The notes under the pieces are model-generated. The model was not told the origin of the DNA. It was given only the letters and a program-made list of their open reading frames with translations, and did no database searches. A DNA stretch of 38,822 bases from Patescibacteria group bacterium (GTDB lineage: Bacteria; Patescibacteriota; Patescibacteriia; Patescibacteriales; UBA12465): the NCBI GenBank assembly GCA_028692765.1, contig JAQUWT010000001.1, positions 79,695 to 118,516 of the forward strand. The letters run 5' to 3'. Within the stretch, counting starts at the first letter, position 1, and every line of letters starts with the position of its first letter. The position numbers and the translations under genes were made by a program. Shown here one piece after another: positions 34,591 through 36,896 of this stretch.

Positions 34591-35745
34591 ATGACTGGGT
34601 TCAAATTAAAATCATCGGCAGACAATTTGCGCCGGGGACGCTTGCTCAGCGCCCACGGCTCTTTGTCGATTCCTTTTTTCATGCCTGATGCTACCAGGGC
34701 ATTCGTAAAAGCCAATACGAGTGCGGATGCTGCCAAAGCAGGGACGGAAGCAATGGTGGTCAATACTTTTCACCTCTATCTCCAGCCTGGACAAAAAATA
34801 ATCAAGCGGGCCGGCGGCGTCCATAATTTTATGGATTGGCAGGGTCCGCTTTTGTCCGATTCCGGCGGTTTTCAGGTTTTTTCTTTGATTCATCGAGGAC
34901 AGGGAATGGGCAAGATAGATGACGACAAGGTACTTTTCAAATCACCCATAGACGGTTCAAAGCATGAATTGACTCCAGAGAAATCCATTCAAATCCAATT
35001 TGATTTGGGCGTTGATATGATGGTGTGCCTGGATGATTGCCCGCCCAATGACTGGCCTAAAAAAGAATTGGAAAAAGCCGTTAGGCGCAGTTTGGATTGG
35101 GCGGCGCGTTGCCAGCGGGAATATCTTAAACAGATAAAGAAGAGGAAAATAAACGAAGATAAGAGGCCCTTGCTTTTTGCGGTGGTTCAGGGCGGCGATT
35201 ATGAGGATTTACGGCTGAAAAGCGCGCAGGAATTAAGCGCTATCGGTTTCGACGGCTATGGCTTCGGCGCCAGGCCGGTTGATAAGGATGGTAATTTTTT
35301 AGCGGAAACGATTTTTAAGACCGCTTCATTTTTACCGGAAGACTCTTTGCGTTTCGCTCTCGGCGTCGGCATGCCTGAGGACATCTATCGTTGCTATCTG
35401 ATGGGCTGGGATATGTTCGATTGCGTTATTCCTACTCGCGAGGGCAGGCACGGCAAATTATTTTTTTTCAAACCCGGTTTCAAGGGTTTTGCAAGAAGCA
35501 AGGCAAAGCCTGGGCCGGTGGCGGCTTATCCAGATTTTTATCGGACGAAAAATATCAGCAATGCCGCCTTTGCTCAAGATTTTTCTCCAATTAATGCCGA
35601 CAGCGATTTGCCGGAATTGCGCCGCTACAGCAAGGCTTTTTTACACCATCTGTTCCGCCTGAACGAACCTTTGGGGCAAAAGTTAGCCAGCCTTAATAAT
35701 TTGGAATTCTATAACCGTTTGATGAGAGAATTACGCAATTTATAG
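34591..35745 (+). CDS. tgt: TGT-like tRNA-guanine transglycosylase without zinc site
   Basis: 384 residues, full length for bacterial Tgt. Catalytic residues are kept: Asp90 in LSDSGGFQVFSL (Asp102 in Zymomonas numbering) and Asp277 in GWDMFDCVIPTREGRHG (Asp280). Substrate-pocket residues CLDDCPP and VVQGG are also present. The structural zinc site is lost: the usual C-x-C-x2-C...H is replaced by Ser338, Leu340, Leu343 and Asn369 in an ungapped alignment made by eye. The loop normally GGLAVGE, which frames preQ1, reads GARPVDK (226-232). Tgt exchanges guanine 34 of GUN tRNAs for preQ1; whether this enzyme does so is open. No queuosine biosynthesis gene is in the window. It follows the Ig-like gene by 2 nt. 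Confidence 0.9.
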   Translation: MTGFKLKSSADNLRRGRLLSAHGSLSIPFFMPDATRAFVKANTSADAAKAGTEAMVVNTFHLYLQPGQKIIKRAGGVHNFMDWQGPLLSDSGGFQVFSLIHRGQGMGKIDDDKVLFKSPIDGSKHELTPEKSIQIQFDLGVDMMVCLDDCPPNDWPKKELEKAVRRSLDWAARCQREYLKQIKKRKINEDKRPLLFAVVQGGDYEDLRLKSAQELSAIGFDGYGFGARPVDKDGNFLAETIFKTASFLPEDSLRFALGVGMPEDIYRCYLMGWDMFDCVIPTREGRHGKLFFFKPGFKGFARSKAKPGPVAAYPDFYRTKNISNAAFAQDFSPINADSDLPELRRYSKAFLHHLFRLNEPLGQKLASLNNLEFYNRLMRELRNL

Positions 35746-35864: not shown

Positions 35865-36896
35865 ATGCCTACGAAAATTATTGCTACGATTGGACCGAAC
35901 AGTGAATCCAAAGAAAAACTTTCGGCTTTGCTTAAAGCCGGTGTCGATATGGTGAGGGTTAATTTCTCACACGCCAGCTACAGCCAGTATTTGCGCATTC
36001 AAAAGATAATCAAAGATTTTAATGCAGAATCGGAACGCCAGATAAAGATAATGCTTGATTTGCAGGGTCCCCGTATTCGGGTAGGGCGCATGCCGGAGGG
36101 CGGTATTTTTATGGCTGACGGCGAATCATATCGTTTTGCTTTTTCAAATAAGCCTTACGTCAATCCCGGCGATGTTATTCCTATCGACAGTCATGACTTA
36201 TATCAAGATATCAAGAAGGGCGAGGCTTTGTTTTTATGTAATGGCGCTATTGAGCTGCAGGTGAAGGCGATTAAGAATAAGACTATTACCGCCGAGGTTA
36301 TCAACGGCGGCGTTCTTAGTTCTCGTAAGGCTATCAATGTTCCCGATACCAACATTCGTAAAGGCGGAATGACGGCTAAAGACTTGAAAGACGCCGCTTT
36401 CGGCGTTAAGGCGGGTGCGGATTATATCGCTCTATCGTTCGTACAGACCGCTAATGATGTTTTGCGCCTGCGCAGACTGCTGGGTAAAAAAAGCGGCATC
36501 AAGATTATTTCCAAAATTGAACGTGGCATCGCTTTGAAGCATATTGATAAGATTATCGCTACTTCCGATGCGATTATGGTCGCCCGGGGCGACTTGGGCA
36601 TTGAAGTGCCGATTGAAGATTTGCCGATTATCCAAAAGAATCTGGTGCGCCACGCCCATTGGCATGACCGTCCGGCCATTATTGCCACTCAAGTCATGAC
36701 TTCCATGATTAAGAATGCCCATCCGACTCGGGCGGAAATTTCCGACATTGCCAATGCCGTTTTTGACGGCGCTGACATGGTTATGCTGTCTGATGAAACT
36801 ACCGTCGGCGATTATCCGGTCGAAGCGGTTAAAATCCTGAAGAAGGTGATTGAGCGGACGGAGAAATATATTTATAAAGGCAATGTCGATAACTAA
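35865..36896 (+). CDS. pyk: Pyruvate kinase lacking the C-terminal allosteric domain
   Basis: 343 residues against about 470 for standard enzymes. The A domain barrel and B domain are complete: VRVNFSH with the substrate Arg, IMLDLQGPRIRVG (usually LDTKGPEIR), catalytic Lys217 in ISKIERG, metal site in VARGDLGIEVP, and HPTRAEISDIANAVFDGADM. The next block reads MLSDETTVGDYP where most have MLSGETA. The chain ends where the C domain, which binds fructose-1,6-bisphosphate in E. coli PykF, would start, so such regulation should be absent. It makes pyruvate and ATP from phosphoenolpyruvate. eno follows after 26 nt and supplies its substrate. Confidence 0.93.
   Translation: MPTKIIATIGPNSESKEKLSALLKAGVDMVRVNFSHASYSQYLRIQKIIKDFNAESERQIKIMLDLQGPRIRVGRMPEGGIFMADGESYRFAFSNKPYVNPGDVIPIDSHDLYQDIKKGEALFLCNGAIELQVKAIKNKTITAEVINGGVLSSRKAINVPDTNIRKGGMTAKDLKDAAFGVKAGADYIALSFVQTANDVLRLRRLLGKKSGIKIISKIERGIALKHIDKIIATSDAIMVARGDLGIEVPIEDLPIIQKNLVRHAHWHDRPAIIATQVMTSMIKNAHPTRAEISDIANAVFDGADMVMLSDETTVGDYPVEAVKILKKVIERTEKYIYKGNVDN

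Follow-up and report, generated by a model that had tools for sequence, protein, structure and literature searches.

QueA and QueH act in the queuosine pathway after the insertion of preQ1 into tRNA, and the substrate of QueA is preQ1-tRNA. Of the two hallmarks that crystallographers have recognized in tRNA-guanine transglycosylases (TGTs), one is the zinc domain (PMC6165067). In the enzyme of Zymomonas mobilis, Glu235 governs a flip of the Leu231/Ala232 peptide between the preQ1-bound and the guanine-bound state, and Cys158 and Val233 help to separate the use of preQ1 from that of queuine (PMC3660597); the location of Val45 in this enzyme is taken from PMC5395182. TGTs of the queuine type carry the motif GG[LS][AS]G (PMC11570991). 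In the open-access literature searched, no paper was found that joins Patescibacteria or Parcubacteria with queuosine.

The window analysed here, meaning the whole stretch of 38,822 nucleotides, belongs to a genome of 0.88 Mb (21 contigs, 99% complete) whose nearest named relatives are Parcubacteria/Falkowbacteria, and in which tgt is present as a single copy. The gene is an intact open reading frame with an ATG start and without internal stops; it begins just past the stop of a gene for a DUF11 surface protein and is followed on its 3' side by genes for pyruvate kinase and enolase. The pyruvate kinase (35865-36896, 343 aa) was matched by the barrel-domain model only, its usual C-terminal domain being unmatched. 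The features of tgt referred to below are as follows.

34591-35745, forward strand: tgt, tRNA-guanine(34) transglycosylase, 384 aa (open reading frame, PF01702, TIGR00430, AlphaFold2 model)
34681-34695, forward strand: MPDAT, residues 31-35, with D33 at the position of Val45 of Z. mobilis (alignment)
34858-34863, forward strand: D90-S91, catalytic Asp (Z. mobilis D102) and the Ser103 equivalent (alignment conservation)
34888-34899, forward strand: IHRG, residues 100-103, four-residue insert of the rewired subfamily after SGGFQVFSL (alignment)
35032-35040, forward strand: D148-D149-C150, equivalents of the base-recognition Asp156, of Glu157 (E157D) and of Cys158 (alignment)
35266-35286, forward strand: GARPVDK, residues 226-232, substrate loop (Z. 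mobilis GGLAVGE, 229-235; alignment)
35353-35364, forward strand: F255-A256-L257-G258, canonically YLMG, with L257 at the Met260 position (alignment)
35419-35421, forward strand: D277, catalytic nucleophile (Z. mobilis D280; invariant in alignments)
35602-35619, forward strand: S338-D-L340-P-E-L343, former zinc knuckle CxCxxC (alignment)
35695-35697, forward strand: N369, at the place of the former zinc ligand His349 (alignment)

The protein is a TGT, as judged from profiles and from comparison with solved structures. It scores 338 bits against Pfam PF01702 (cut-off 26) and 343.3 bits against NCBIfam TIGR00430, the equivalog of bacterial Tgt, which lies above the curated cut-off of 306.75. A preliminary description of this DNA had suggested predicting the structure and building a family alignment and tree. 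The resulting AlphaFold2 model is confident (pLDDT 95.1) and shows the TIM-barrel TGT fold with a C-terminal subdomain, its best Foldseek matches being Z. mobilis TGT (TM 0.84-0.86, E 3e-36), and the tree places the protein in a branch of TGTs with a rewired substrate loop. Three other identities were rejected: an archaeosine TGT (TgtA), by a score of 77 bits against the TIGR00432 cut-off of 350; a non-catalytic subunit like QTRT2, by the retention of catalytic D90 and D277; and a queuine-inserting TGT of the Chlamydia/eukaryote type, by V230 where the GG[LS][AS]G type has Gly at the Val233 position. Residues were mapped by MAFFT alignment to Z. mobilis Tgt, in which D102, D280, D156, C158 and Q203 correspond to D90, D277, D148, C150 and Q200, all kept. 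Among 252 aligned TGT rows, D90, D277 and D148 are invariant and Q200 is found in 251. What the preliminary description had said of residues that remain (Asp90, Asp277, the pocket Cys and VQGG) holds throughout; its alignment to the Zymomonas enzyme had been ungapped, and gaps are needed, for the four-residue insert at 100-103 and for a longer one at about 294-318.

The structural zinc site of bacterial Tgt, CxCxxC...H, is absent from the window protein. At the places of Z. mobilis C318, C320, C323 and H349 stand S338, L340, L343 and N369, exactly as had been read by eye. The only cysteines are at 146, 150, 174, 268 and 278, so that the C-terminal part cannot rebuild the site. Displaced cysteines that might remake it, an alternative raised in the preliminary description against its own reading, were searched for in the window protein and none was found past residue 278; a C-terminal cysteine is likewise absent from 98 of 130 zinc-free rows. 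Compared with a homologue of 87% identity, the whole gene has a pN/pS of 0.069/0.625 (ratio about 0.11), and residues 317-384, the former zinc region, one of 0.014/0.581 (ratio about 0.02). Since the same pattern occurs in about 50 of 80 database relatives and pN/pS is low, neither chance nor an assembly error accounts for it. The AlphaFold2 model, made without metal, is confident over the knuckle, with block means of 98 for residues 321-380, a figure that is no gauge of metal-free stability. In the sequence, a mini-core of hydrophobic residues and Asn (S-x-L-x-x-L...N, with co-changing N335 and E372) takes the place of the zinc knuckle; the protein would bind no zinc and would fold without it.

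The second departure concerns the substrate loop, where the motif GG[LV][AS]VGE of preQ1-using bacterial Tgt is not found. Z. mobilis G229-G-L-A-V-G-E235 becomes G226-A-R-P-V-D-K232, with L231 replaced by R228 and E235 by K232, as the preliminary description had correctly noted. In a phylum-wide tree, a branch with support of 100 parts 122 such rewired sequences from the remaining 129 TGTs, among them the Z. mobilis and T. maritima enzymes. Their signature comprises V45D (122/122 rewired sequences against 0/130 others), T101S, E157D, the loop G-A/G-R/W/Y-P/H-V/I-D, L259A/G, M260L and an insert at 100-103 that reads IHxN in most of the clade; in total, about ten otherwise conserved pocket positions differ. 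The Val233 position is held by Val or Ile in 110 of the 122. Two observations concern gene copies: a Moraniibacteriota bin has two rewired TGT genes of almost the same sequence, each on a contig of its own (L065 and L066), maybe through a mixture of strains, and in genome G036 (L207, contig C18, 42000-46415) an intact rewired tgt lies beside another copy that is fragmented into several frames and interrupted by stops.

Loss of the zinc site extends well beyond the window's lineage. The pattern S-x-hydrophobic-x-x-L...N is present in about 50 of the 80 database relatives, and CxCxxC...H with the same loop type in 27, mainly Moranbacteria. Among 183 dereplicated TGTs of the class, 60 are rewired and zinc-less, 30 rewired with CCCH, 59 canonical and zinc-less, and 22 canonical with CCCH, the last count taking in three references that do not belong to the phylum. 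Since CxCxxC...H is missing from many further members of the TGT tree, this motif does not delimit the family. The preliminary description had run the loss of zinc and the change of the loop together into a single event. This was rejected, as all four combinations are common and the two traits vary independently; in a tree from which the columns of both traits were left out, a single change of the loop stands against at least ten of the zinc site. Forcing all zinc-free sequences into one clade is rejected (p-AU 0.00018), also for the N-terminal part alone (p 0.0023). The preliminary description had also asked whether ordinary enzymes show the same substitutions: for one half this is so, zinc loss being seen also in TGTs with the canonical GGLAVGE loop. 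The remodelled loop is a separate trait of the whole subfamily, and an older one. Outside the class, the zinc site is absent from 8 of 66 sampled Patescibacterial TGTs, most of which keep it, and some of the replacements are quite different (enzymes with a GGELQEK loop). A separate TGT group of this kind, with a GGELQEK-like loop and without CxCxxC, was seen in one family of the phylum, f111 (L245, L246, L253, L255, L257 and L278); QueA is absent from all six genomes. Taken together, class-wide recurrent loss, purifying selection and the lack of replacement cysteines give good support to the zinc-independent Tgt lineage proposed in the preliminary description, as far as sequences can tell.

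How the zinc-free C-terminus arose is a question of its own. Instead of repeated loss, recombination may have carried the segment from tgt genes of one loop type, canonical or rewired, to those of the other, an origin that would be compatible with the main explanation and that is possible, though we lean against it. The replacement residues are nearly identical in both subfamilies, down to the co-changing positions (Asp to Asn at 335, Lys/Arg to Glu at 372), and a FastTree of the C-terminal part splits the loop types poorly, with 13 changes against one for the N-terminal part. On the other hand, about 60 C-terminal columns are too few, as the tests leave both a rewired clade (p 0.87) and a zinc-free clade (p 0.73) standing, and in several canonical-loop lineages the knuckle is wholly deleted (e.g. 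SPINNTNLKQYS), which suggests separate routes.

For the rewired pocket, the charge reversal from Glu to Lys had been taken as an argument for a changed substrate, but the reversal is not conserved: K, E, S, A and N are all seen at this position in relatives, and it is D231, one position earlier, that is conserved. Pro at the Ala232 position has no peptide NH, the group that is gripped by Glu235 when preQ1 is bound and turned towards the pocket when guanine is bound. Because Pro removes the NH on which the flip depends, the guanine/preQ1 switch is probably lost or altered, and the conserved Asp perhaps stands in for it; such a loss or replacement would give the pocket a bias and leave the base as it is, and a change of base is not thereby proven. 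A broader proposal holds that the whole PDAT, or rewired, subfamily is functionally distinct, lacks the Glu235-gated switch and either inserts, in its many QueA-less members, a base not known from other TGTs or exchanges preQ1 only, the window's lineage having in addition no zinc. This we regard as unlikely.

The search for que genes, also suggested in the preliminary description, succeeded for the end of the pathway: QueA (E 6.7e-130) and a QueH domain (E 1.7e-54) are encoded in the source genome. QueF, QueT, YhhQ/Vut and a preQ1-I riboswitch were searched for in this genome and none was found; QueG was not found there either, QueH being present instead, and no RNA element was found near tgt. 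As the end of the pathway is present and a recognized beginning or importer is absent, a novel preQ1 importer is predicted. Within the window's order, QueA is found in 30 and QueH in 27 of 32 genomes with a rewired TGT, and both in all four with a canonical TGT. Outside the order, QueA occurs in 8/36 rewired-TGT against 15/28 canonical-TGT genomes, counts that are uncorrected for relatedness among genomes that are not independent. The genes queA, queH and tgt are consecutive in genome G026, queA and tgt in its sister in the tree (L041), and queA and tgt lie about 33 bases apart in two genomes of another family (G536 and G476), so that queA or queA-queH directly precedes a rewired tgt in two lineages. 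In the source genome QueH, an epoxyqueuosine reductase, forms the C-terminal portion of a 518-aa fusion protein that begins as a WecA/MraY-like glycosyltransferase-4 membrane protein (L160:4489-6045, contig C13, which also carries the window, some 74 kb further on); open frames of similar length were seen in most genomes of the family, and in G027 (L139) the QueH and glycosyltransferase-4 genes are adjacent and unfused.

The reading preferred here, to which a probability of about 0.72 is given, is that of a catalytically competent, zinc-independent TGT that would exchange G34 of tRNAs with GUN anticodons for salvaged preQ1, after which QueA and QueH would complete queuosine; the preQ1 would be imported from neighbours by the predicted transporter. 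Against it count the lack of any preQ1 source among those searched for in the source genome, the lower frequency of QueA with rewired TGTs outside the order, and the roughly ten pocket changes, which go beyond what the use of preQ1 would appear to require. Because of the counts outside the order, this reading is firm for the window's lineage and less so for the whole subfamily.

A base different from preQ1, e.g. another 7-deazaguanine, might be what the rewired subfamily inserts, with the pocket changes as an adaptation; for the window enzyme, a different base was one of the two options of the preliminary description. This reading draws on coordinated, near-invariant changes in one clade (V45D, L231R/W/Y, A232P/H, G234D, L259A/G, M260L) and on the absence of QueA from 28 of the 36 rewired-TGT genomes that lie beyond the window's order, but QueA is often missing from canonical-TGT genomes too. 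The near-universal company of QueA and QueH within the order, the former acting on preQ1-tRNA, the position of queA directly 5' of rewired tgt in two lineages, and the retention of C158 and V233 (Z. mobilis numbering) in the window protein make a changed base distinctly unlikely. Direct salvage of queuine in the manner of Chlamydia, which would make relics of QueA and QueH, would suit a reduced genome without preQ1 synthesis, and members of the phylum are likely to depend on hosts; it would, however, make two conserved enzymes useless, and the pocket of queuine TGTs owes its opening to a Gly at the Val233 position, where Val or Ile prevails here (PMC3660597, PMC11570991), so that this route is very improbable. 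Decay or a non-catalytic, QTRT2-like role, which the disappearance of a structural site considered near-invariant and the decayed second copy in G036 might suggest, is scarcely credible given two catalytic Asp residues that do not vary in any of 252 sequences, the low pN/pS of the gene and above all of the former zinc region, and a single tgt copy in the source genome.

About two-thirds of the sampled TGTs of this class lack the zinc site, with a specific replacement that recurs. Such a class would demonstrate that TGTs can do without the metal and in what way side chains can rebuild a zinc knuckle. The rewired pockets, for their part, provide naturally occurring variants of a base-exchange switch that is already well studied.

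The window TGT is most likely a new zinc-independent variant of a known enzyme that salvages preQ1 for queuosine. With bacterial TGTs (Tgt, TIGR00430; Z. mobilis, E. coli, T. maritima) it shares the fold, the catalytic Asp pair, Asp156, Gln203, Cys158 and Val233, and the interface aromatics F92, Y330 and H333 of Z. mobilis correspond to F80, F350 and H353; it differs from the Z. mobilis type in the missing zinc ligands, GARPVDK for GGLAVGE, V45D, the four-residue IHxN insert and FALG for YLMG. Zinc-keeping rewired TGTs (Moranbacteria and other Patescibacteria) have PDAT, IHxN, LDD, Asp at the Gly234 position and ALG in common with it but retain CxCxxC...H, whereas zinc-free canonical-loop TGTs of the class share S-x-hydrophobic-x-x-L...N or a deleted knuckle, N335 and E372, and retain the GGLAVGE loop and YLMG. 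QTRT1 and the Chlamydia queuine TGT are alike in base-exchange chemistry and family fold and unlike in having Gly at the Val233 position, and QTRT2 has lost the catalytic Asp residues that the window TGT keeps as D90 and D277. Both eukaryotic subunits have the family fold in common with the window TGT and, unlike it, hold zinc (PMC6165067).
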